Assembly (NCBI RefSeq): GCF_035918155.1
Contig: NZ_CP109327.1
Coordinates: 4,898,001-4,962,000 of the forward strand
Source: Streptomyces sp. NBC_01591
GTDB lineage: Bacteria; Actinomycetota; Actinomycetes; Streptomycetales; Streptomycetaceae
Direction: 5' to 3'
DNA length: 64,000 bases
The notes beneath the pieces were generated by a model, which had not been told where the DNA came from, ran no database searches, and was given only the letters and a program-made list of their open reading frames with translations. Each line of letters opens with the position of its first letter. Position 1 is the first letter of the stretch. This document shows, in pieces, positions 51,476 to 63,645 of this stretch. A program made the translations under genes and the position numbers.

Positions 51476-51601
51476 TCAGTCCGGGTTGACGGTGTCGAAG
51501 TACAGGCCGTCCGCCGTCGCGCCGAGGAAGAACCGCCCCATGGGCAGGCCGTCCGCCGGGCCGGGGCCCGGGAGCAGCGCGTCGTAGGAGGCGCCGGCCA
51601 T
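51476..51601 (-). pseudogene. Short ORF fragment next to the tandem repeat
   Basis: From the ATG at 51601 the minus strand encodes 41 residues (A-S-Y-D-A-L-L-P-G-P-G...F-F-L-G-A-T-A-D-G-L-Y-F-D-T). They look like the end of a real protein, but the frame runs straight back into the 29-bp repeat array, which encodes Arg/Gly-rich repeats in every frame. It may be a gene truncated by repeat expansion, or a small protein. Confidence 0.35.
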
Positions 51602-51674
51602 CCACCGCGCGTGCGCGGGCGGGAACCCGGCCGGCACACGCGCGTCTGCGCGCCGCCTTCCCGCGTCCTTTCCC

Positions 51675-52106
51675 GGTACGCCCTGCCTTCCCGCGCCTCC
51701 CTCGGTACGCCCTGCCTTCCCGCGCCTCCCTCGGTACGCCCTGCCTTCCCGCGCCTCCCTCGGTACGCCCTGCCTTCCCGCGCCTCCCTCGGTACGCCCT
51801 GCCTTCCCGCGCCTCCCTCGGTACGCCCTGCCTTCCCGCGCCTCCCTCGGTACGCCCTGCCTTCCCGCGCCTCCCTCGGTACGCCCTGCCTTCCCGCGCC
51901 TCCCTCGGTACGCCCTGCCTTCCCGCGCCTCCCTCGGTACGCCCTGCCTTCCCGCGCCTCCCTCGGTACGCCCTGCCTTCCCGCGCCTCCCTCGGTACGC
52001 CCTGCCTTCCCGCGCCTCCCTCGGTACGCCCTGCCTTCCCGCGCCTCCCTCGGTACGCCCTGCCTTCCCGCGCCTCCCTCGGTACGCCCTGCCTTCCCGC
52101 GCCTCC
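51675..52106. repeat. Tandem array of about 15 copies of a 29-bp unit
   Basis: The unit begins GGTACGCCCTGCCTTCCCGC and repeats every 29 bp, with starts at 51675, 51704, 51733 and so on to 52081 (15 starts). Inner copies appear identical; the flanks degenerate. The minus strand of each unit carries several G-runs (GGGAGGCGCGGGAAGG). As 29 is not a multiple of 3, three units code 29 residues in all frames, so the array is not selected as a reading frame. It has no unique spacers, so it is not a CRISPR array. Confidence 0.95.
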
Positions 52107-52262
52107 TCCGAACACCTCCTCCGGAACGCCCCGTCCCCGCCCAAGTGGGGTGTCACCGGGCGGGGTTCGAAAGTCGCGGCGGGTCCGCAGCGGCGATCGC
52201 CGGCGTATGCGTCGCGTGTGCGCACTGAGCCGCCCGCGCGGTATTCCGGCTGCATGAGGGCC
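52107..52262. other. Region upstream of the lanthipeptide precursors
   Basis: No gene is visible between the tandem repeat and the leader hairpin. The promoter for the precursor transcript should lie here, but I see no clear -10/-35 pair. GTGGGGTGTCACCGGGCGGGG at 52145-52165 is the only striking G-rich patch. Confidence 0.4.
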
Positions 52263-52315
52263 GCTGAGGATGGCACTCGGAACCCGGCCTCCCAGGCTCG
52301 GTTCTCATCCTCAGC
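52263..52315 (+). promoter_or_regulatory. Hairpin in the 5' leader of the lanthipeptide precursors
   Basis: GCTGAGGATG (52263-52272) pairs perfectly with CATCCTCAGC (52306-52315). An inner GAACC/GGTTC stem (52280-52284 with 52300-52304) extends it. The base of the hairpin is one nucleotide from the strong ribosome site AAAGGAGGTG, so folding could affect translation or message stability. Confidence 0.6.
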
Positions 52316-52334
52316 GAAAGGAGGTGACAGACAA

Positions 52335-52556
52335 ATGAACCTTGTTCGCGCATGGAAGGACCCCGAGTACCGGGCCACCCTCAGCGAGGCTCCCGCCAAC
52401 CCGGCCGGCCTCGTCGAGCTGGCCGACGATCAGCTCGACGGCGTCGCGGGCGGGACCACGTGGGCGTGCGCCACGATCACTCTGACCGTGACGGTGTGCT
52501 CCCCGACCGGGACCCTCTGCGGCAGCTGCAGCATGGGCACGCGTGGCTGTTGCTGA
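52335..52556 (+). CDS. lanA1: Class II lanthipeptide precursor, beta-type
   Basis: A 73-residue precursor. The leader starts M-N-L-V-R-A-W-K-D-P-E-Y-R, typical of class II leaders, and ends V-A-G-G at residues 37-40, the cleavage site for a C39-peptidase transporter. The 33-residue core has 12 Ser/Thr and 6 Cys (positions 5, 15, 22, 25, 32 and 33 of the core), ending G-C-C, enough for six thioether rings. Composition fits the beta component of two-peptide lantibiotics, in particular what I recall of roseocin from S. roseosporus. AAAGGAGGTG precedes the ATG. Confidence 0.88.
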   Translation: MNLVRAWKDPEYRATLSEAPANPAGLVELADDQLDGVAGGTTWACATITLTVTVCSPTGTLCGSCSMGTRGCC

Positions 52557-52586
52557 GCCTACAGATTCCTACAAGGAGTGATGTTC

Positions 52587-52823
52587 GTGGACATAGTCCG
52601 GTCCTGGAAGGACGCCGACTACCGGCTGTCCCTCGGGAGTGAGGCCCCCGCCCATCCGTCGGGCGAAGGCCTCACCGCAATCACCGACGAGGAGCTGACC
52701 GAGATCAACGGAGCCGGCTCCGGAGTTCTCGGCACTCTCGGGTGCTGCTCGTGCCTGCCGTGGTATTCGGGCTGGACCGTATGTGGTCTCGCCTGCAACC
52801 CCGGTAAGCCCTGCAAGAACTAG
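52587..52823 (+). CDS. lanA2: Class II lanthipeptide precursor, alpha-type
   Basis: A 78-residue precursor sharing the leader signature D-I-V-R-S-W-K-D-A-D-Y-R with the first peptide. The leader ends near E-I-N-G-A-G. The core of about 33 residues has 6 Cys but only 4 Ser/Thr (T-L-G-C-C-S-C; Y-S-G-W-T-V-C; C-N-P-G-K-P-C-K-N), so at most four rings can form and two Cys are left for a disulfide. That matches the alpha component described for roseocin, as I recall it. I prefer the GTG at 52587 (8 nt after AAGGAG) to the ATG at 52581. Confidence 0.88.
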   Translation: MDIVRSWKDADYRLSLGSEAPAHPSGEGLTAITDEELTEINGAGSGVLGTLGCCSCLPWYSGWTVCGLACNPGKPCKN

Positions 52824-52842
52824 CAGCGTACCGAAGAAACGG

Positions 52843-52886
52843 CGTGACCGGCAGGGGCGGGCGACTGTGCGCCCCCGCCGGTCACG
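52843..52886 (+). terminator. Hairpin between precursors and lanM (attenuator)
   Basis: CGTGACCGGC-A-GGGGCG (52843-52859) pairs with CGCCCC-C-GCCGGTCACG (52870-52886), with one internal mismatch and a 10-nt loop. It stands 19 bp after lanA2 and 25 bp before lanM. Such partial terminators let precursor mRNA exceed enzyme mRNA in RiPP operons. Confidence 0.7.
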
Positions 52887-52911
52887 TTCATGCCCCAGGA
52901 GGAAGAGCGGA

Positions 52912-55900
52912 ATGCCTGACGTCGCAAGCGAGCACCCCACCAGCGGGTCGGCCGGGGCCCACCTCCCCTGGCACCGGGCCGCCACCCTGAGCGAAAGACT
53001 CGGCGGGACTCCGTCGCAGTCCGACCCGGTGCGAGGCGAGAAGCGCCTGGCCATGTGGAGGGAGCTGGCGCCGCTGACCGGTGAGCGCGCCACGCTGGAC
53101 GCACGGCTCGCACCGCTTGGCGTCGGCGCCGACGAACTGGCCGCTCTGCTCGGCGAGAGCGACGCGTCCCTCGCCGCCCGCCTGACGGACGAACCCGACT
53201 GGCACCAGGTCTTCAGGCGCTGGTGGGCCGAGGGCATGGCCACCACGGACACCACCCGCCGCCTCGACCCCGACATGGGCCTCCTGGAAGTGATCCGCCC
53301 CCTCGTGGAGGGTGCCGTCCACGAACTCGACGCACTCGTCGAGGAACGCGTGCGGACCAGCGACGACCCCGTCATGGCCGACCCGGGCCACATCCTCGAC
53401 GTCGTCCGCGCGACCGCCCCGGCTGCCGACCTGCTCGGCCATGTGCAGCGGACCCTCGTACTCGAACTCAACATCGCCCGCGTCGAGGACCGCCTCGGCG
53501 GCGAGACCCCCGAGGAGCGCTTCTCCTCGTACGTCGAACTGCTCCGCTCGGAGGGCAACGCCCTCGCGCTCTGGGACGAATACCCGGTCCTGGCACGGCT
53601 GATCGTGGGCCAGCTCCGCTTCTGGATCGACACGCGGGTCGAGCTGATCGAGGCGCTCGTCGCCGACCTCCCCGCACTGCGCGAGAGCCTGCTCGCCGCC
53701 CCAGGGCCCCGGCGGCTCGAACGCCTGGAGTTCGGTGCCGGCGACAAGCACCGGCGGGGCCGCTCCGTCGCCATGGTCGAATTCGACACTGCCACCCTGG
53801 TCTTCAAGCCCCGCCCGCTGGCCATGGACACCGCCTTCGACGGGCTCCTGGACTGGGTCAACCGGCAGGGAGCCCCGCATGACCTGGCCCGGATCGGTAT
53901 CGTGGACCGTGGCAGCCACGGGTGGGTCGAACAGGTCGACACCACCGCGACCACCGACGCCGAAGGCGGCGACCGTTACGCCTGGCGGCTCGGTGCCCTG
54001 ACGTCACTCCTCTACCTGCTGCACGCCACGGACTTCCACTTCGAGAATGTGCTGGCCGCGGGCGAGTACCCGGTTCTCGTCGACCTGGAGGCGCTGCTGC
54101 ACAACGACAAGACCGCGGCCGTCGTCAAGATCGACGGTGAGACGGACATCGCCGCGGTCACCCTCGCCGACTCCGTCCAGTCCGTGGGCATCCTCCCCAA
54201 CCACCTGCTGGTGCGCGGCGAGGACGGCACCTTCGGCCTGGACGTCAGCGGACTGGCGGGCCACGGCGGGCAGTTGACCCCCATGCCGGTGCCCACCTGG
54301 GAGGGCAGCGGAACCGACCGGATGCGGCTGGTCAAGCGCCGGATGGAGATGGACGCCGAGCGCAACCACCCGATGACCGCCGACGGCGAACCGATCGACC
54401 TGGTCGGCCGGGTCGACGCGTTCGTCGAGGGGTTCACCCACGTCTACCGGCTGCTGGAAGCGGGCCGTGACGAACTGCTCGCCGCCCAGGGGCCGCTGGC
54501 CCCCTTCGGCCTCGTCCGGACCCGGCTCATCGCCAGGCCGACCCACATCTACGGCCGGCTGCTGCTGGAGAGCACCCACCCGGACTTCATGCGCGACGGC
54601 CTCGACCACTCCCGCTCGCTCGCCCGGCTGGCGGGCGGACATGTCGAGATGCCGGAGTCCCGCAACGCGATGATCCTGGACGAGGTCGCCGAGCTCACAC
54701 TCGGAGACATACCCATGTTCACCGTCGACGCGGAGTCCGGGACCCTGCGCGGCGGACTGGACGGCCGGCCGATCGGTACCCGCTACCCGCCGCTGACCGC
54801 CGTACGCGAACGCCTCGTCGCCCTCGGCGACGCCGACCTCGCCTTCCAGGCGCGGGTCATCCGCTCGTGCGTCGCCGCCACCGCCATGGGCGAGAGCGAC
54901 GCCCGCTGGCCCAACTGGCACCGCCCCCGGCTGGACGGCGCGGCCGACCCCGGCGACTTCGCCGAGGAGGCCCTGCGGCTGGCGCACCGGCTGTCGGACC
55001 TGTGCATCCGCGACGAACACGGGCTGGGCTGGATCGGGCTGGACCTGGTCGACGAGAAGTACTGGCAGTACGCGCCCGCACCGATCGGCCTCTACACCGG
55101 GACCGCCGGCATCGCGCATGCCCTGGACGCCGTCGCGGCCGTGACCGGCGACGAGCGGACCGGCGAGCTGGCCCAGGCCGCCTTCGACCAGGTGGCGAAG
55201 CGGTCGGTGCTCATCGCCGAGACGCTGGCGAGCCTGGCGAAGAAGCCGGGAGCCGCAGAGTTCGGCATCGGCGCGTTCGGCCCGTTCGGCGGTGCCGTCT
55301 ACGCCCTGGCCCACGCCGCCGTACGCCACGACCGGCCCGAGTACGCCGAAGCCGCCGCCGCCCTGCTGCCCGCCATCGACGAACTCGTCGAGGAGGACCC
55401 CCTCCTGGACATCGTCTCCGGCTCGGCGGGCGCGATCCTCGCCCTCCTCTCGCTGGAGACCGCCCGGCCGGGCACCGGAGCGGCCCGGATCGCGGCGCGC
55501 TGCGCCGACCGCCTGCTGGCCACCCGGCAGGAACGCGGCGAGGGATGGGGCTGGGCCACCCCCATCAACCCCGAGGAGCCGCTCGCCGGCTTCTCGCACG
55601 GCGCCTCCGGCATCGCGTACGCGTTCGCCCGGCTCGACCGGGCCGCTCCCCGCCCGGAGTACAAGGAGGCCGTCCGGCACGCGCTCACGTACGAACGGAC
55701 CGCCTTCGACCCGGAGCTGCGCACCTGGCGCGACCTGCGGCCGGCCAACCTCGGTGGGCGTACGGTCATGAACGCCTGGTGCCACGGCGCCCCGGGCATC
55801 GCGATGGCCCGCAACGCCTTCCAGGAGCTGCGCACCGTCCCGGACCTGGCCGACCTGATCGAGAGCGACCGGCACATGGCGGTCCTCGCCGCCATATCGA

Positions 55901-56226
55901 CGGGCCTCGACCTCGACCCGGTGTCCGGTCTCGGCAACCACAGCCTGTGCCACGGGGACATCGGCAATCTGCTCATCATCGACGAGAGCAGCAGAGCCGA
56001 CCAGGAGCCGGAGGTCGCCGGCCTGCTGCCCCGGGTGTGGAACACGCTGCTGCACGAGGGCCGGGAGAACGGCTGGCTGTGCGGCGTCCCGAAGGGCGTG
56101 GAGACACCCGGTCTCATGACCGGTCTGGCCGGCATCGCCTGGGGACTGGCGCGCAAGGCCGCACCCGAGCGGGTGCCGGACCTGCTGACGCTCGCCGCCC
56201 CGGACACCCGGGGGAAGACGTGCTGA
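52912..56226 (+). CDS. lanM: Class II lanthipeptide synthetase LanM
   Basis: A 1,104-residue bifunctional enzyme. The N-terminal two-thirds is the DUF4135 dehydratase domain, which phosphorylates and eliminates Ser/Thr (R-G-R-S-V-A-M-V-E-F, L-L-H-A-T-D-F-H-F-E-N with the catalytic Asp/His/Asn, Y-P-V-L-V-D-L-E). The C-terminal 400 residues are a LanC-like cyclase with zinc ligands Cys957 (N-A-W-C-H-G) and Cys1013-His1014 (S-L-C-H-G-D). One LanM for two precursors implies that it modifies both. AGGAGG at 52898-52903 precedes the ATG; it overlaps the next gene by 7 bp. Confidence 0.95.
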   Translation: MPDVASEHPTSGSAGAHLPWHRAATLSERLGGTPSQSDPVRGEKRLAMWRELAPLTGERATLDARLAPLGVGADELAALLGESDASLAARLTDEPDWHQVFRRWWAEGMATTDTTRRLDPDMGLLEVIRPLVEGAVHELDALVEERVRTSDDPVMADPGHILDVVRATAPAADLLGHVQRTLVLELNIARVEDRLGGETPEERFSSYVELLRSEGNALALWDEYPVLARLIVGQLRFWIDTRVELIEALVADLPALRESLLAAPGPRRLERLEFGAGDKHRRGRSVAMVEFDTATLVFKPRPLAMDTAFDGLLDWVNRQGAPHDLARIGIVDRGSHGWVEQVDTTATTDAEGGDRYAWRLGALTSLLYLLHATDFHFENVLAAGEYPVLVDLEALLHNDKTAAVVKIDGETDIAAVTLADSVQSVGILPNHLLVRGEDGTFGLDVSGLAGHGGQLTPMPVPTWEGSGTDRMRLVKRRMEMDAERNHPMTADGEPIDLVGRVDAFVEGFTHVYRLLEAGRDELLAAQGPLAPFGLVRTRLIARPTHIYGRLLLESTHPDFMRDGLDHSRSLARLAGGHVEMPESRNAMILDEVAELTLGDIPMFTVDAESGTLRGGLDGRPIGTRYPPLTAVRERLVALGDADLAFQARVIRSCVAATAMGESDARWPNWHRPRLDGAADPGDFAEEALRLAHRLSDLCIRDEHGLGWIGLDLVDEKYWQYAPAPIGLYTGTAGIAHALDAVAAVTGDERTGELAQAAFDQVAKRSVLIAETLASLAKKPGAAEFGIGAFGPFGGAVYALAHAAVRHDRPEYAEAAAALLPAIDELVEEDPLLDIVSGSAGAILALLSLETARPGTGAARIAARCADRLLATRQERGEGWGWATPINPEEPLAGFSHGASGIAYAFARLDRAAPRPEYKEAVRHALTYERTAFDPELRTWRDLRPANLGGRTVMNAWCHGAPGIAMARNAFQELRTVPDLADLIESDRHMAVLAAISTGLDLDPVSGLGNHSLCHGDIGNLLIIDESSRADQEPEVAGLLPRVWNTLLHEGRENGWLCGVPKGVETPGLMTGLAGIAWGLARKAAPERVPDLLTLAAPDTRGKTC

Positions 56227-56732
56227 ACGGCGGGTCCGCACCGGCGGCCCCACCGGACGGCGCCCTCTCCGACGGCGTCTACAGGCCGAGCATGGTGGCG
56301 GCCTACCGCGCCAACCCGCGTGGCGCCGCCCGTACCGGCTTCCACCCCGAACGGATGCGGCCGCGGTGGCGATGGGCCCTGGCCGGGGCCCTGCTGCTCG
56401 CCGCCACGGTGGTGGCCGGCCTCATGGTGCGGGTGCCCGTCGGGCCGACCGGCACCCTGGCCGGCGTCAACGGACGCCAGGGCGTGCTCGCCTTCCCGGG
56501 CTTCGGCCCGCCGGCGAAGGGCAGTGACGTCCTGCTGCGCGTGGACGGCCGGCGTGTGGAGGGCCGGGTGAAGGACTTCCAGACCGGTCAGGGCGGGTCC
56601 CAGGTCACCATGGTGCTCGTCGAACTTCCCGGTGGCGTCGCCGGCGGACTGAAGGAGGGCGCGTCCGTGGTCCTCGACCAGGGCACCCGCCCGCTGCTCA
56701 TGGACATCTGGGACGGAAGGGGCGACCAGTGA
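56220..56732 (+). CDS. Small membrane-anchored adaptor-like protein of the lanthipeptide operon
   Basis: A 170-residue protein with a 50-residue cytoplasmic N-terminus, one membrane helix (about 52-71, ALAGALLLAATVVAGLMVRV) and an external beta-rich domain of 100 residues (G-F-G-P-P-A-K-G-S-D-V-L-L-R-V-D-G). The last part resembles the barrel/lipoyl-like half of HlyD-type adaptors, but there is no coiled-coil hairpin. It overlaps lanM (GTG at 56220) and lanT (GTGA at 56729), so it is coupled to both and probably assists export. Confidence 0.7.
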   Translation: MLNGGSAPAAPPDGALSDGVYRPSMVAAYRANPRGAARTGFHPERMRPRWRWALAGALLLAATVVAGLMVRVPVGPTGTLAGVNGRQGVLAFPGFGPPAKGSDVLLRVDGRRVEGRVKDFQTGQGGSQVTMVLVELPGGVAGGLKEGASVVLDQGTRPLLMDIWDGRGDQ

Positions 56733-58876
56733 CCATCATCCGCCGCAGGGTGCCCGTGCGGCTGCAGTCCACCTCGGTCGAGTGCGGCGTCGCCGCCCTC
56801 GCCATGGTGCTCGGCTACCATGGCCGCTCCACCACCGTCGCGGAGCTGCGTGACCGGATGGTGCTTTCGCGCGACGGGGCGAGCGCCGCCTCCATCGCCC
56901 GGCAGGCACGCGAACTGGGCCTGAAGGTACGGGCCTTCCGCGCGGAACCGGAGGCGCTGCGGGGGCTCGTCCTGCCGCTGATCGCGCACTGGGGCATGAA
57001 CCACTTCGTCGTCATCGAGCGCTTCACCCGCCGCGGGGTCGACATCGTCGACCCGGCGTCCGGACGGCGGCACATCACCTACGCGGAACTGGACGCGTCC
57101 TTCACCGGGGTGGCGCTGGAGCTGGAGCCGACCGAGGACCTCGAACGCCGCGAGGGCGCCGAGGCGGGACTGTGGTCCTTCGTCCGGCCCTTCCTGCCGC
57201 GTTCCGTGCCCGTCGTCTCCGGGGTCATCGGCGCCTCCGCCGCGCTCACGCTCCTCGGACTGCTCCCGGCCTTCCTGACGGCGTACATCGTCGACCGCGT
57301 CCTGCCCGGGCGCGGCGAGGACACCCTGCTCGTCCTGGCGGCCGGTCTCGTCGCGTACACCGTGAGTCACGGTCTGATGACGCTGGCCCGGGCCGAGCTG
57401 TTGCTGTGGCTGCAGACCCGGATGGACTGGTCGATGATGGGCACGTTCCTCAGACACCTGATGTCCCTGCCGTACAAGTTCTTCCAGCTGCGCACCGGGG
57501 GCGACCTGCTCGTACGGGTGTCGAGCATGACGTACGTGCGTGACGCCGTCTCCAGCCAGCTCCTGGCGGTCCTCCTGGACGTGGCCCTGCTCGGCGTCTA
57601 CCTCGTGGCGATCGGCTTCAAGTCCCTGCTGTTCGTCGCCGCGATCCTCGCCGTCGCCACCGTCCAGCTCGTGATCATGTTCGCCTCCGCCCGGACCGCC
57701 CAGCGGCTGACCGAACGCGAACTCCAGGCACTCGGAGAGGCGCAGAGCACGCTCCTGGAAGCGGTGACCGGCGCCGAGACGGTCAAGTCCTCCGGCGCCG
57801 AACACGTCGTGGTGCGCCGGTGGTCGCAGAAGTTCTCCGAGCAGCTGGAGTCCTCCGTACGCCGGAGCAGACTGGACAACGCGATCGACGGCGTCCTCGG
57901 CATGCTGGGCACCGCGTCTCCGCTGCTCATGCTCGTACTCGGCGCCTACCTCGTCTTCAGCGACAACCTGTCGCTGGGAACGATGCTCGCGCTCATCGCC
58001 CTGGCCGGCTCCGCACTCGCCCCGGTGGCCCAACTGGGCCGCAGCATCAAGACGTTCCAGACCATCCGGGTCCACCTCGACCGGCTGCGCGACGTGCTGA
58101 ACGAACCCCCGGAGTCCTTGGGGCAGGGGTCCGGGAAGGCGGACCTGAGCGAGCCGATCACCCTGACCGACGTCAGCTTCCGCTACTCCGGGGACGGACC
58201 GGAGGCCCTGTCGGGCATCTCCCTCACCGTCCGGCCGGGCGAGAAGATCGCCATCGTCGGCAGCAGCGGTTCGGGGAAGTCCACCCTGGCCCGTCTCATC
58301 CTCGGGCTCTACGACCCGACGGACGGGGAGATCACCTATGGCTCCACCCCGCTGACCGAGCTGGACCTCGGACACCTGCGCCGCCAGTGCGGCGTCGTCA
58401 CCCAGGACGCGGACATCTTCAGCGGCTCGGTGCTGACCAACATCGCGCTGGTCATGCCCGATGCCACCCTGGACGATGTCGTCGAGGCGGCCCGCCTCGC
58501 GGCGGTCCACGAGGACATCACGCACATGCCGATGGGGTACGAGACGATCCTCGGCGAGGGCGGCAACGGCCTGTCCGGCGGGCAGCGGCAGCGGGTCGCC
58601 CTGGCCCGCGCCGTCGTGCACCGGCCGAGGGTTCTGCTGCTGGACGAGGCCACCAGCCACCTGGACGCGACCACCGAGGCGGTCGTGCACGAGAACCTCT
58701 CGGAACTCGACTGCACCCGCATCGTCATCGCGCACCGGCTGAGCACCGTGCGCGACGCGGACCGCATCCTCGTCATCGACCGCGGCCGGATCGTCGAGGA
58801 CGGTGACCACGAGGAACTGGTCGCACGAGGGGGTGCGTACGCGGCCCTCGTCGGCCAGCAACTGGTCCATGACTGA
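56729..58876 (+). CDS. lanT: Peptidase-containing ABC transporter LanT
   Basis: A 715-residue bifunctional exporter. Residues 1-125 are a C39 cysteine protease (Q13, C19 in V-E-C-G, H92, D108) that removes the leader after the GG/GA-type site. Six membrane helices follow (about 155-430), then an ATPase domain with Walker A at 511-518 (G-S-S-G-S-G-K-S-T), signature L-S-G-G-Q and Walker B V-L-L-L-D-E-A-T. It exports the modified peptides as they are cut. The GTG at 56729 overlaps the adaptor stop. Confidence 0.95.
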   Translation: MTIIRRRVPVRLQSTSVECGVAALAMVLGYHGRSTTVAELRDRMVLSRDGASAASIARQARELGLKVRAFRAEPEALRGLVLPLIAHWGMNHFVVIERFTRRGVDIVDPASGRRHITYAELDASFTGVALELEPTEDLERREGAEAGLWSFVRPFLPRSVPVVSGVIGASAALTLLGLLPAFLTAYIVDRVLPGRGEDTLLVLAAGLVAYTVSHGLMTLARAELLLWLQTRMDWSMMGTFLRHLMSLPYKFFQLRTGGDLLVRVSSMTYVRDAVSSQLLAVLLDVALLGVYLVAIGFKSLLFVAAILAVATVQLVIMFASARTAQRLTERELQALGEAQSTLLEAVTGAETVKSSGAEHVVVRRWSQKFSEQLESSVRRSRLDNAIDGVLGMLGTASPLLMLVLGAYLVFSDNLSLGTMLALIALAGSALAPVAQLGRSIKTFQTIRVHLDRLRDVLNEPPESLGQGSGKADLSEPITLTDVSFRYSGDGPEALSGISLTVRPGEKIAIVGSSGSGKSTLARLILGLYDPTDGEITYGSTPLTELDLGHLRRQCGVVTQDADIFSGSVLTNIALVMPDATLDDVVEAARLAAVHEDITHMPMGYETILGEGGNGLSGGQRQRVALARAVVHRPRVLLLDEATSHLDATTEAVVHENLSELDCTRIVIAHRLSTVRDADRILVIDRGRIVEDGDHEELVARGGAYAALVGQQLVHD

Positions 58877-58928
58877 CCGTTCCCCGCTCACGTACCCCCG
58901 GCCCGGCGCGGCACGCGATGCTGGGAGC

Positions 58929-59444
58929 ATGACCCCTGCGACACGCTCCCGGCCGGCGCTTCTGAGGCGGCTGCGCACGCTGACCCTCCTGGAAGCGGCG
59001 AACATCGCGCTGATCGGCTGGGCGGTGTTCGCGGCCCTCGGCGCACCCTTCAGTACCGCGAACGCGGTGGGCTTCGCCCTGGTGGCCGGGCTCTTGCTCA
59101 TCGGGTCCGGGTACTGGGCCCTGAAGGCGCGTCAACTGCGCACCGGAGCACGGCAACCGCCCGCGATCGGGGTGTTCCGTCCGCTCCGTCCGCTGTGCGC
59201 CCTGGCCCTGGCGGCCGGCCTCGCGGTCATGGTTTCGGCCCTCCCGGGACGGCCGCCGTCCGACTGGGCCCCCGGCCTCGTGCTGTACGGCCTGGGCCTG
59301 GCGGAGTACGTCAACTACTTCCATCGGCAGCTGATGCACGACACCGCGGCGGACTGGCGCAGGCTGCTGCGCACTCGCCGTCTGCGCAGATCGCACCTGG
59401 CGGAGGACCTGCGCGCTCACCGCGACCGACACGTACGGACCTGA
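58929..59444 (+). CDS. Membrane protein of unknown function in the lanthipeptide operon
   Basis: A 171-residue protein with about four membrane helices (two around 20-65, two around 85-125) and a basic C-terminal tail (RRLRRSHLAEDLRAHRDRH). I do not recognise the family. Position between lanT and the exporter genes suggests a role in immunity or export. The ATG at 58929 has GGGAG close upstream; the ATG at 58869, overlapping the lanT stop, would add 20 residues and is a real alternative. Confidence 0.65.
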   Translation: MTPATRSRPALLRRLRTLTLLEAANIALIGWAVFAALGAPFSTANAVGFALVAGLLLIGSGYWALKARQLRTGARQPPAIGVFRPLRPLCALALAAGLAVMVSALPGRPPSDWAPGLVLYGLGLAEYVNYFHRQLMHDTAADWRRLLRTRRLRRSHLAEDLRAHRDRHVRT

Positions 59445-59531
59445 CGGCCTCCACGCACGACTCCAGCGGCCCCGACGCCCGTGCCCGTGACGCCCGGCAC
59501 GGCAGCCGCGCGAACGTAAGGAACAGAGTTC

Positions 59532-60485
59532 ATGACCCCACCGGAAGTGAAGGACGCGCAGGCCCCGGCCGACGGCCGGCCGATCGAGTTCCGCGGCCTG
59601 TCGAAGCGGTACCGCGACAGATGGGCCGTGGAGGACCTGTCCTTCACGGTCGCGCCCGGACGCGTCACGGGCTTCCTCGGCCCGAACGGGGCGGGCAAGA
59701 CGACGACGCTCCGGATGCTCCTCGGCCTGACGGCCCCGACGTCCGGCACCGCGACCGTCGGCGGACGGCCGTACCGGGACCTGGCACAGCCGCTCAGAAC
59801 CGTCGGCGCGATGCTCGACGAGTCCGGCACACATCGCAGGCGGACCGGCCGTGACCATCTGCGCGTGCAGTGCGCGGCGACGGGCCTGCCGGCCCGCCGG
59901 GCCGACGAGGTGCTCGACCACGTCGGACTGGCCCAGGCAGGCGGGCGGCGTTACGGGGAGTACTCGCTCGGCATGCGGCAACGCCTCAACCTCGCCCAGG
60001 CGCTGCTCGGCGATCCACCCGTCCTGATCCTCGACGAACCCTCCAACGGGCTCGACCCCGAAGGGATCGCCTGGATGCGCGCCCTGCTGCGGACGCTGGC
60101 CGCCGAAGGCCGTACGGTGCTCGTTTCCAGCCACCTGATATCCGAGGTCGAGCAGACCGCCGACGACCTCGTGATCATCAGTCAGGGGCGGCTGGTGGCC
60201 GAGGGGTCGAGCCGCGAGATCGCCGCGCGGGTGCGGGGCGAGGCCCGTGTGCGGGTCCGCGCCTCACGGCCCGCGGAACTGGCGGCGGCGCTCACCTCGG
60301 CGGGAGCGGTCGTGACGTGTCCGCCCGCCGGGGACGGACTCCTGATCGTGAGCGGCCTCGGGGCGGGCGAGGTGGCCGCGGCGGCGGCCACCCACGGCGG
60401 GGAACTGTACGAACTGGCCGAGGACGCGCCCGATCTGGAACAGGCGTTCCTGCGGCTCACGCAAGGACAGGCGGAGATCCGATGA
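59532..60485 (+). CDS. lanF: ABC transporter ATP-binding protein (LanF-like, probable immunity)
   Basis: A 317-residue ATPase with Walker A G-P-N-G-A-G-K-T-T, Q-loop region, signature Y-S-L-G-M-R-Q-R and Walker B V-L-I-L-D-E-P. The type is the drug/lantibiotic-efflux ATPase family (DrrA/LanF) with a short C-terminal extra domain. It pairs with the permease that follows (ATGA overlap). In lanthipeptide clusters, such pairs expel the peptide from the producer membrane. AAGGAAC precedes the ATG. Confidence 0.9.
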   Translation: MTPPEVKDAQAPADGRPIEFRGLSKRYRDRWAVEDLSFTVAPGRVTGFLGPNGAGKTTTLRMLLGLTAPTSGTATVGGRPYRDLAQPLRTVGAMLDESGTHRRRTGRDHLRVQCAATGLPARRADEVLDHVGLAQAGGRRYGEYSLGMRQRLNLAQALLGDPPVLILDEPSNGLDPEGIAWMRALLRTLAAEGRTVLVSSHLISEVEQTADDLVIISQGRLVAEGSSREIAARVRGEARVRVRASRPAELAAALTSAGAVVTCPPAGDGLLIVSGLGAGEVAAAAATHGGELYELAEDAPDLEQAFLRLTQGQAEIR

Positions 60486-61363
60486 GGGGGCTGATCGGCA
60501 GCGAGCTGCTCAAGCTCCGTACGCTGCCCACCTGGTGGATCGCCGGCGCGGCGATGGCCGCGGTGGCGGTGCTGCTGGCGCTGTGGAACAGCTGGCAGGC
60601 CCACACCTTCATGCAGCCGTTCGAGGACTATCTGGCAGGGGCGATCCTGACCCCCCGCGAGGACATGTCCGCCGAGCAGGTCAGCACGATGCGCGACCTC
60701 TGGGAGACCCAGTCGGCCCCCGGCCGCATCGCCGCGACCCTCTACACCTCCGGGCAGACCCTCGGCCTGCTGCTGGCGGGCGTGCTGGCCATCCTGCTGG
60801 TGACCAACGAGTACCAGTACCGGACCCTGACGGCCACGTTCCTCGCAGCGCCCCGCCGGGGCCGCGTCGTCACGGCCAAGCTCGTCGTCGTTCTCATCTC
60901 CTCGGCCGGGCTGTGGCTGGCGGCGACGCTGGGAAGCCTCGTGGTCGGCGGGATCTTCCTGACTTCTCAGGGCACCGGTCTCGGGCTCGGGAGCGGGGAC
61001 GTGCTCGGTGCGGTTCTGCTGAACCTGGCCGCCTACTTGGTGTGGGGCGTGTTTGGCTTCGGCCTCGGGGTGCTCATCCGCAGCCAGACCGCCGCCACCG
61101 TCACCGCGGCGGTGCTGTACTTCCTGTCCTCGGTCGTCGTCGCGTTCGCCTTCCAGGTCGTGCACGACCTGGTTCTGGAGGAGAACTGGGTGCTCCAGGC
61201 CCAGGTGCTGCTGCCCGGAGTGGCGTCCCAGATCATGACCACGCCCGGTGAGCTCTTCGCCGGGGCCCCCGCTCCCTGGACGGGCGCCGCGGTGCTCGTC
61301 GCCTACAGCCTGGTCGGCGGCCTCACGGGAACGCTGCTGCTGCTCCGGCGGGACGTGACCTGA
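60482..61363 (+). CDS. lanE: ABC transporter permease (LanE-like, probable immunity)
   Basis: A 293-residue ABC-2 type permease with six membrane helices and a large external loop between helices 1 and 2 (about 45-90). It starts M-R-G-L-I-G-S-E-L-L-K-L-R-T-L, the usual beginning of this family, at an ATG overlapping the ATPase stop. Together with that ATPase it would form the self-protection exporter of the cluster. Confidence 0.9.
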   Translation: MRGLIGSELLKLRTLPTWWIAGAAMAAVAVLLALWNSWQAHTFMQPFEDYLAGAILTPREDMSAEQVSTMRDLWETQSAPGRIAATLYTSGQTLGLLLAGVLAILLVTNEYQYRTLTATFLAAPRRGRVVTAKLVVVLISSAGLWLAATLGSLVVGGIFLTSQGTGLGLGSGDVLGAVLLNLAAYLVWGVFGFGLGVLIRSQTAATVTAAVLYFLSSVVVAFAFQVVHDLVLEENWVLQAQVLLPGVASQIMTTPGELFAGAPAPWTGAAVLVAYSLVGGLTGTLLLLRRDVT

Positions 61364-61432
61364 GTCCGGTGGCCGGACGGCCACCGGACTCAGGTGCGAG
61401 GCCTCCGCGTCAGGAAGAAGGACGCGGAGGTC
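61359..61432. terminator. Double hairpin between lanE and the SARP gene
   Basis: CCTGAGTCCGGTGGCC (61359-61374) pairs perfectly with 61379-61394 around GGAC. A second stem, GCCTCCGCGTC (61401-61411) with GACGCGGAGGTC (61421-61432), follows and overlaps the end of the SARP gene. The convergent genes are thus separated by a strong bidirectional terminator. Confidence 0.9.
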
Positions 61433-62384
61433 TTCGGCACTGGCACCGCTCCGCGGAGTCCTGGGTCCGGGACGCGACGAGCCGCATGGCCTCCTCACGG
61501 TCCCAGTTGAGCGCCGCCGTCCGCATGGCCTCGATACCGGGGGGCAGGTCGAGCCCCAGATCCTCCGCGAACAGCTTCTGGCAGCGGTTGACCACCGACA
61601 GCGTGCTGACGGTGTCGCCGTGCAGGCAGTGCACCGCCGCGAGCAGCTCCCACAGGTGCTGGCGGTAAGGGGCCTCGGCGATCACGCTCTCGATGCGGTA
61701 GGCCAGCATGATGGTGCGGCCGGCGAGGACGGACGCGGTGAAGAGGTCCTGATAGGCGTCCAGCCGGGCGTTGTTGAGCCCCGCTATGTGGGCGTTGAAC
61801 CACCGAGTGGGCGGGAGGTCCTGTCCGAAGGGACCGTTCCAGAGGCCGACGGCCTGTTCCAGGGCGTCGACCGCCGACTTGTGGGAGCCGCGTGACAGCC
61901 AGTTCCGGCCACGCTGGACCGCGGCGGTGAACCGGGGCAGGTCGAACTCGTCGGGCGCGATCTCCAGTCCGTATCCGCACTGGGCGCCCCGGTAGGTCCG
62001 CATCCGGTCGCCGAGCCCGGGCTCGACCTCGTCGAGGTCCCGGCGCAGTCCCGTCACGTGGCTCCGGAGGTTCGCCGTGGCCGAAACCGGCGGGTCGTCC
62101 CAAAGGATCTCGCTGAACTCCGCGATGCCGATGGGCCGCCCGTACCGGAGCAGGCAAGCGGTGAGGACCGCGCGCCGGACGGGTGAGGTGACAGACATGG
62201 TCCTGCCGTGGAACGAGAGCTGCCCGAGGACGCCGAAGCGCGGATCGGGGCGTTCGCCGTGGGCGCCGGGCGGTGTCGCCGGGGTGGAGCGGCCGGCCGG
62301 GGCTGGTTCGTTCCCGATGGTGTGGGGAGCGGATCCGTCGGGAGGATCGGTCTGTGGGGAGCGGATCAACAGGAGTCCTCTCAC
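61410..62384 (-). CDS. SARP family regulator (AfsR/DnrI type)
   Basis: A 324-residue regulator. A winged-helix OmpR-like DNA-binding domain (about 48-145; F-G-V-L-G-Q-L-S-F, the L-R-S-H-V-T-G-L-R-R-D-L recognition helix) is followed by the bacterial transcriptional activation domain (about 155-300). SARPs switch on secondary-metabolite clusters, so this is the likely pathway-specific activator of the lanthipeptide operon, which it faces convergently. The GTG at 62384 lacks a ribosome site, and the first 45 residues are Pro-rich, so the start may be further downstream. Confidence 0.85.
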   Translation of the reverse strand: MRGLLLIRSPQTDPPDGSAPHTIGNEPAPAGRSTPATPPGAHGERPDPRFGVLGQLSFHGRTMSVTSPVRRAVLTACLLRYGRPIGIAEFSEILWDDPPVSATANLRSHVTGLRRDLDEVEPGLGDRMRTYRGAQCGYGLEIAPDEFDLPRFTAAVQRGRNWLSRGSHKSAVDALEQAVGLWNGPFGQDLPPTRWFNAHIAGLNNARLDAYQDLFTASVLAGRTIMLAYRIESVIAEAPYRQHLWELLAAVHCLHGDTVSTLSVVNRCQKLFAEDLGLDLPPGIEAMRTAALNWDREEAMRLVASRTQDSAERCQCRRPPRPSS

Positions 62385-62835
62385 AGGTACGCAGTGAGGG
62401 GCGTGCCGGTGGTGAGCCGCGGAACCTCTTTTGTCCGATTCTCGCCGCCGAACCGGGCAGGGAGGAGGACCCTTCGTTCGATGTCTGGCGAGATCCGGCT
62501 CAAGTGCGTCATATCGTCTCCTGCTTGGTCAGGGCAGGGGGAACGCGCACAGGCGTCAGTCTTTTGTTCCCCCGTTGGAACTGCGTTCACGCTTTCAGAG
62601 GGAATGAGATCCGGCTAGTAGCAGCGCGTAATTGACTTGAATCCTGCGGTTGGAAATCTTCCGATCGGGGCTACTCGGAGGTAGGATCCTCCGCTTCCGT
62701 TCATGGAGGCCCGGCCGATCGGTTCCCGCCAAATCGAGGCAGCTTGCGGGCAGAAAATCATGCAAGCATGCTTGATTGTTTATTGGTCCGCTGCCATGCT
62801 CCTGGGCACACCGCCACGCCCCGAGGGAGTGCACC
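62385..62835. other. Divergent intergenic region of 451 bp
   Basis: No gene is convincing here. The region separates the SARP gene from the TIGR03084 operon and is less GC-rich than its surroundings. TTGACT at 62632-62637 and TAGGAT at 62682-62687 are promoter-like hexamers, though not spaced to one another. The right part has the CAAGCATGCTTG palindrome and the ribosome site GAGGGAG at 62823-62829. Confidence 0.5.
62763..62774. promoter_or_regulatory. CAAGCATGCTTG palindrome upstream of the TIGR03084-atuA operon
   Basis: A perfect 12-bp palindrome, with partial extension on both sides (AATCATG-CAAGCATGCTTG-ATTGT), 62 bp before the GTG of the TIGR03084 gene. TetR-type regulators of acyl-CoA-degradation operons recognise palindromes of this kind. 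No regulator gene is inside the window on this side. Confidence 0.65.
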
Positions 62836-63645
62836 GTGTCCGATGCATCGGCCGTGACCGTCGCCGTACTCGACGACCTGCGTCAGGAGAGCGAGGAACT
62901 CGACCGGTTGGTCGCCGGGGTGGACGCGGCCCACTGGGCGAGGCCGACCCCGGCCGAGGGGTGGACCGTCGCCCATCAGATCGCGCACCTGAACTGGACC
63001 GACGAGGTCGCCCTGATCGCCGTCACCGAACCGGACGCCTTCGCCGCCGAGGTCGAGAAGGCGCTCGCGCACCCCGAGACGTTCGTCGACGAGGCCGCCG
63101 GGGAGCTCGTCGCGCTGCTGTCGGCCGAGGGACTGCTCGTCCGGTGGCGCGAGGGCCGGGCCCGGCTGCACGAGGCCCTGGGTGCGGCCCCGCCGGGCGT
63201 GAAGTTCCCCTGGTACGGGCCGCCGATGAGCGTCGCGTCCATGGCGACCGCCCGGATCATGGAGACCTGGGCCCACGGCCAGGACATCGCCGACGCCCTC
63301 GGGGTCACCAGGACCCCCACCGCCCGGCTGCGGCACGTCGCCCGTATCGGGGTGCGGGCCCGCGACTACGCCTATCTGGTACGGGGGATCAAGGCGCCCG
63401 AGGAGGAGTTCCGGGTCGAACTCCGCGCCCCCGACGGTGAGTCGATCACCTTCGGGGCGCCGGACGCACCGCAGCGCGTCACCGGACCGCTCGTCGACTT
63501 CTGCCTCCTCGTCACCCAGCGCGCCCACCGCGACGACCTCGCCGTCCGGGCGGTCGGCCCCGACGCCGACCAGTGGCTCGGCATCGCCCAGGCCTTCGCC
63601 GGGCCCGCCGGACCGGGCCGCGCACCCCGTGGCGGCGCCGAGTGA
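62836..63645 (+). CDS. TIGR03084-family metal-binding protein (DinB/MDMPI fold)
   Basis: A 269-residue protein with the N-terminal four-helix DinB-like domain of mycothiol-dependent maleylpyruvate isomerase relatives. The metal-binding residues are likely in V-A-H-Q-I-A-H-L and [11 protein letters not shown]-terminal domain follows from about 180. The TIGR03084 type is usually found next to AtuA and acyl-CoA genes, as here. The GTG at 62836 follows GAGGGAG; the stop overlaps the next start (GTGA). Confidence 0.88.

Follow-up and report, generated by a model that had tools for sequence, protein, structure and literature searches.

What does the group of lanthipeptide genes at positions 52,335 to 61,363 of the window encode, and is its product already known? 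The window is the whole analysed stretch of 64,000 nucleotides from Streptomyces sp. NBC_01591 (contig NZ_CP109327.1, positions 4,898,001 to 4,962,000), and all coordinates below refer to it unless stated otherwise. An earlier note, made without database searches, had read the region as a two-peptide class II lanthipeptide cluster and had left the choice between roseocin itself and a new variant. The comparison presented here points to a type 2 roseocin cluster of the roseocin family, to which we give a probability of about 0.93 on the strength of its gene and protein sequences, and the product would most likely be roseocin itself. The antibiotic is a published one, for which the window appears to carry the full set of genes, and the present result is a sound annotation of an established two-peptide lantibiotic, not of a new one.

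In the excerpts of the literature on which our statements from cited papers are based, roseocin consists of an alpha peptide with four rings and an indispensable disulfide and a beta peptide with six rings, which are synergistic and are both modified by one LanM (PMC10027976). In Streptomyces roseosporus NRRL 11379 the cluster is described as having a pair of precursors, a single LanM, a hypothetical protein, LanT and genes with a putative role in immunity (PMC3951391, PMC10027976). The same set is found in the window, where two precursors with conserved leaders (RosA1-beta and RosA2-alpha in roseocin) accompany a single LanM of the CHG type (RosM in roseocin), a hypothetical protein, a LanT of the C39 type and putative immunity genes. 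The precursors and the synthetase are encoded as follows:

52,335-52,556, plus strand: lanA1, beta precursor (73 amino acids), leader ending in VAGG, core TTWACATITLTVTVCSPTGTLCGSCSMGTRGCC
52,587-52,823, plus strand: lanA2, alpha precursor (78 amino acids), leader ending in INGA, core GSGVLGTLGCCSCLPWYSGWTVCGLACNPGKPCKN
52,912-56,226, plus strand: lanM, class II lanthipeptide synthetase of the CHG type (1104 amino acids), with DUF4135 and LANC_like domains and a TIGR03897 match

Both precursors match the mersacidin/lichenicidin family TIGR03898 of NCBIfam above its cut-off of 23.5 bits (beta, E 9.2e-18 and 63.9 bits; alpha, with a query from 52,584, E 8.9e-16 and 57.6 bits). Their leaders are of the mersacidin/NHLP type and their Cys-rich cores are unlike, which bears out the claim of the earlier note that a common leader signature is joined to two very different cores. 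The start of lanA2, a GTG at 52,587, was chosen by eye from ribosome-site spacing, with an ATG at 52,581 as the alternative. The alpha core carries the motif S/TxxxxTxGCC as SGVLGTLGCC at core positions 2-11, and the last 11 residues of the beta core, GSCSMGTRGCC, follow the motif GS/TxxxxS/TxGCC. Aligned with published roseocin, the alpha core agrees at 23/23 of the Ros-alpha positions printed in the excerpts of PMC10027976 (2-SGVLGTLGCC-11, S12, C13, 18-SGWTVCGLAC-27 and C33), V22 included. The Ser/Thr and Cys residues needed for four rings plus a disulfide in alpha and for six rings in beta are present. The core composition proposed earlier was right for beta (12 Ser/Thr and 6 Cys) but not for alpha, which has five Ser/Thr instead of four. 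In a full-text search, two other papers matched a short core string by accident of DNA text.

The synthetase matches TIGR03897 with 744 bits (cut-off 304), and its residues 179-1097 align with the solved LicM2 structure (6st5). The cyclase part keeps WCHG and SLCHG, and in the dehydratase part the DFHxEN and VDLE/IDLE stretches align with LicM2; we take the two cyclase motifs to be the zinc site and the dehydratase stretches to be the dehydratase sites. The cluster contains one LANC_like gene, and this single LanM would modify both precursors. The only other LANC_like gene of the genome lies 1.75 Mb away (G000:C1:3197847-3200435; L039 5221-8442) and is 37% identical; neither a filter for Cys-rich open reading frames nor inspection by eye recognised a precursor beside it. 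In a large database, where 7,997 candidates were scored at a cut-off of E 1e-200, the closest LanM is 98% identical and belongs to Streptomyces sp. Wh19. A tree of LanM sequences places the window with Wh19 and NPDC057966 (100/99), and NPDC002431 and S. rubiginosohelvolus join further out, forming a fully supported set of five Streptomyces rows (100/100); because of the great length of the outgroup branch (3.16) the deep rooting was not used. A Kribbella LanM (P0039), 77% identical, falls with two further rows beside the Streptomyces rows, a position that may reflect transfer between orders.

The remaining genes of the cluster, whose eight proteins were all covered by Pfam and NCBIfam profile scans, and the adjoining regulator are the following:

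56,220-56,732, plus strand: small accessory membrane protein with one hydrophobic helix and a beta-barrel-like part, overlapping the lanM stop codon
56,729-58,876, plus strand: lanT, C39 peptidase-ABC transporter (715 amino acids), PF03412, PF00664 and PF00005 all over cut-off
58,929-59,444, plus strand: membrane protein with four helices (these and the start assigned by eye)
59,532-60,485, plus strand: lanF-like ABC ATPase (PF00005), probable immunity
60,482-61,363, plus strand: lanE-like ABC-2 permease (PF12679, 46.6 bits, cut-off 27.2), probable immunity
61,410-62,384, minus strand: BTAD-type (SARP-like) transcriptional regulator (PF03704, 84.4 bits)

The order on the plus strand is A1-A2-M-HP-T-HP-F-E (HP, hypothetical protein), followed by the divergent regulator, and fits the type 2 roseocin plan; all nine reading frames are open. 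The two precursors, LanM, C39 LanT and ABC pair were all found as the earlier note had listed them, with open frames and in the order given, and the likeness to roseocin that it proposed is upheld by the printed alpha positions, by the alpha and beta motifs and by the match of the cluster plan with that of S. roseosporus NRRL 11379. Three genes are added to its account, the two membrane proteins at 56,220-56,732 and about 58,929-59,444 and the regulator at 61,410-62,384. The extent it assigned, 52,335 to 61,363, has good coordinates, but the cluster runs past this right edge to take in the linked BTAD gene.

A LanM scan of the named genome collection returned eight loci, in S. rubiginosohelvolus (L003), S. 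globisporus (L004), S. spinoverrucosus (L005), Streptomyces ADI96-02 (L006), S. gelaticus (L007), Glycomyces (L008 and L010) and Streptomyces ADI95-17 (L009). The full set of eight cluster genes, together with the BTAD regulator, occurs in the same order in L003-L007, and a chance arrangement is excluded because the gene order recurs in these five other Streptomyces loci. The alpha core of the window is identical to those of L003, L004 and L005, and differs by one change from L006 and by several from L007; the beta core is identical in L003, differs at one residue in L004, L006 and L007, and at two residues in L005. Besides identical cores, S. rubiginosohelvolus JCM 4415 shares the gene order and similar flanks, with identities of 91% for LanM, 83% for the small membrane protein, 76% for the four-helix protein and 80% for the regulator. 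We describe an orthologous roseocin cluster with conserved precursors in another Streptomyces genome, whose likely product could be identified from sequence alone.

Among 392 genomes sampled from the genus, six matched the alpha precursor, three of them weakly, and the three strong matches, the window's own included, carry both precursors; among 394 genomes of the class there were four, of which G709 and the window's own genome gave strong matches and the other two weak ones. At the protein level all six alpha-precursor matches carry the alpha motif and CLPWYSGWTVCG, and 16 of the 22 beta-precursor matches carry the beta motif, the six without it being the weakest. Some LanM match occurs in 22 of 61 relatives, and among the matches listed all those outside the window's own cluster are at most 39% identical.

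Several points weigh against so close an identification. The literature search with the core strings matched Ros-alpha only, and a differing Ros-beta would escape such a search. The alpha agreement concerns 23 of the 35 positions, the other 12 not being printed in the excerpts of PMC10027976. The eight LanM loci of the collection include none from a record named S. roseosporus or S. filamentosus. The 91% identity of LanM to that of S. rubiginosohelvolus marks the gene as an ortholog, not a copy. The host itself, with an assembly of 10.25 Mb, is a genome other than that of S. roseosporus, and the likeness is drawn from alpha positions, motifs and gene plan. We nonetheless hold it likely that neither core departs by a single letter from its S. 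roseosporus counterpart. The competing view that lies inside the favoured family reading is a natural congener, of the same family and action but a distinct product through one or a few core substitutions. The cores of the five Streptomyces relatives do vary, at beta positions 8 (Ile/Val) and 26 (Ser/Gln/Asn), at alpha positions 2, 12, 28 and 31 and at the alpha C-terminal end, and this variation can be cited in favour of a congener. Agreement at every printed Ros-alpha position, the report that 18 of 22 Streptomyces matches encode an identical precursor (PMC10027976) and the identical cores of L003 speak for the other side, and we regard a congener as rather unlikely.

An intact sequence could also belong to a cluster that is decaying or silent, its expression or function lost, and a close relative illustrates such a fate. 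In Streptomyces ADI95-17, whose flanks match the window at 91-95% identity and whose cluster pieces match it at 96-99%, the same place (L009 9917-10759) holds a remnant corresponding to window positions 52,828-53,011, 55,029-55,427 and 59,721-59,987; both precursors are gone, and similarity resumes at 61,730 inside the regulator gene, so that the BTAD gene is truncated. Unless the draft scaffold is misassembled, this reads as loss of the cluster by several deletions, and ADI95-17 would be a natural near-empty counterpart of the window. A 29-bp repeat in 15.6 copies just upstream of lanA1 can be taken in the same direction. Against decay stand the nine open reading frames and the mostly synonymous changes of the precursors, as well as the retained hairpin behind lanA2, though L009 with its decayed cluster has retained it likewise. 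The substitutions were counted by the Nei-Gojobori method between the window and the five Streptomyces loci, leader and core separately and the first few codons left out. Compared with L003, synonymous changes number 4 + 5 in the beta leader and core and 1 + 3 in the alpha leader and core, with no nonsynonymous change; nonsynonymous totals are 0 (L003), 1 to 2 (L004, L006), 5.7 (L005) and 12 (L007), against synonymous totals of 9 to 33, and no segment exceeds 4.0 nonsynonymous changes in any locus, the synonymous ones being 1 to 12. Such counts would indicate purifying selection on leaders and cores, the segments being short enough to give its direction only. We consider decay or silence improbable. 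A still more remote proposal, which we judge very improbable, makes the precursors two independent single-peptide lantibiotics that have a LanM in common and lack synergy. By eye the two cores show no evident likeness to each other, as this would have it. However, alpha and beta precursors stand side by side in seven intact loci (L003-L008, and L010 by tblastn, which found an alpha-type precursor at 58% where the regular expressions had missed the core), and both peptides are reported to be necessary in the case of roseocin (PMC10027976; PMC13060208).

Roseocin thus being the preferred reading, the window can be set beside other two-peptide lantibiotics. The lacticin 3147 type likewise consists of two synergistic class II peptides, but has two LanMs, with CTxTxD/EC in most alpha peptides (PMC10027976), whereas the window has one LanM and an alpha core devoid of Asp or Glu, which does not contain this lipid II motif. 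Birimositide from Streptomyces rimosus is, like the system described here, an actinobacterial two-peptide class II lantibiotic; it differs by a lacticin-type alpha peptide and a luciferase-like LanJC reductase (PMC7268733), a domain absent from the eight window proteins scanned. The remark that two-component lantibiotics are rare outside Firmicutes is partly right, but 13 representative actinobacterial members (PMC10027976) and birimositide (PMC7268733) have been described. Knowledge of lantibiotics is unchanged by the present cluster.

The ABC gene pair had been proposed as a dedicated exporter. The pair is present, but it is better read as a probable immunity system of the LanFE type than as peptide export. 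The best NCBIfam model of its ATPase is the lantibiotic protection ATPase TIGR03740 (195.6 bits, below the cut-off of 309.75); its ABC-2 permease has no NCBIfam match. Export would fall to LanT, which has near full-length matches to ComA and to a bacteriocin ABC transporter. The four-helix membrane protein, a possible immunity factor, is kept in L003-L007, and tblastn at a threshold of E 1e-4 found no match to it in either Glycomyces locus (L008, L010). No Pfam or NCBIfam family reaches its cut-off with this protein, and assignments to Metal_resist (2/6 members) or the DisA-linker (1/6) were rejected as matches below cut-off. The small membrane protein, whose GTG start at 56,220 precedes the end of the lanM stop at 56,226, is probably the hypothetical protein of the roseocin papers. 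It has no Pfam match, its NCBIfam matches are weak and below cut-off, and Foldseek returned nothing at E 0.001 or better; among the 50 matches listed from each of two structure searches with it, no membrane-fusion protein of an exporter was seen. A match to the F1-ATPase barrel was attributed to a widespread barrel shape and not to relationship.

From these assignments a course of events can be proposed. Guided by the common leader, the one LanM, equivalent to RosM, would dehydrate Ser/Thr and close the thioether rings in both precursors; LanT would remove the beta leader behind GG and the alpha leader behind GA and export the cores, and the two mature peptides would act jointly on Gram-positive bacteria. 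Protection of the producer would come from the ABC-2 pair, possibly aided by the four-helix protein, and the BTAD regulator would presumably control expression.

Two non-coding elements accompany the genes:

52,841-52,888, plus strand: stem-loop between lanA2 and lanM (-41.8 kcal/mol)
52,204-52,221, plus strand: conserved block TATGCG..GC.TGTGC upstream of lanA1, kept in 6/6 aligned loci

The stem-loop has a z of -5.96, and 0/200 shuffles are as stable. The outer stem, with its 12 pairs, is formed in 7/7 aligned loci, the decayed L009 included; in L005 and L007 several of the inner pairs do not form. In the consensus fold 3/29 pairs are changed on both sides in one sequence, and two of these belong to the outer stem; since the covariation term is slightly unfavourable (+0.68), the case for the hairpin rests on stability and conservation. 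It is probably a partial terminator or messenger RNA 3' end that would favour precursor over enzyme. The upstream block is a candidate promoter or regulator site, still unproved; its acceptance as a proven regulator site was rejected, the pattern occurring once in the genome and its backward-read control also once. Rfam gave 0 matches at the gathering threshold over 51,500-62,500. The tandem repeat mentioned above lies at 51,655-52,106 (99% match) and ends about 230 bp before lanA1; no BLAST piece above 150 bases was printed there from the related loci. Leads on the dosing and export of a two-peptide lantibiotic come from the conserved hairpin, from the regulator and from the small membrane protein. 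Tentatively, the cluster might contain working parts not yet described: a conserved hairpin behind the two precursor genes that keeps precursor messenger RNA above that of lanM, a BTAD switch of its own, and an adaptor reduced to one helix plus a barrel, paired with the C39 exporter in a Gram-positive host.

How far the cluster extends was read from a BLAST comparison with window positions 40,001-64,000 as query, pieces above 150 bases being printed. Similarity to L005 and L007 starts at 52,318 and 52,300 and ends at 62,188 and 62,242, respectively. Because it stops there though both loci extend further, the conserved unit is set at about 52.2-62.4 kb, including the minus-strand BTAD gene, which adjoins the cluster throughout L003-L007, even in L005 and L007 whose farther flanks do not match. 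Flanks on both sides are common to the window and L003, L004 and L006. A recent foreign island was rejected on composition, the G+C content between 48 and 64 kb, taken for each 1 kb, being 0.67-0.75 with no clear shift. Plasmid kinship was likewise rejected: no plasmid LanM reached at least 60% identity (189 records matched, all <60%), and the window lies on an 8.8 Mb contig. The regulator is adjoined at 62,776-63,645 by a gene for a mycothiol maleylpyruvate isomerase-like protein, which probably belongs to the flank, as it is found in L003, L004, L006 and L009 only.

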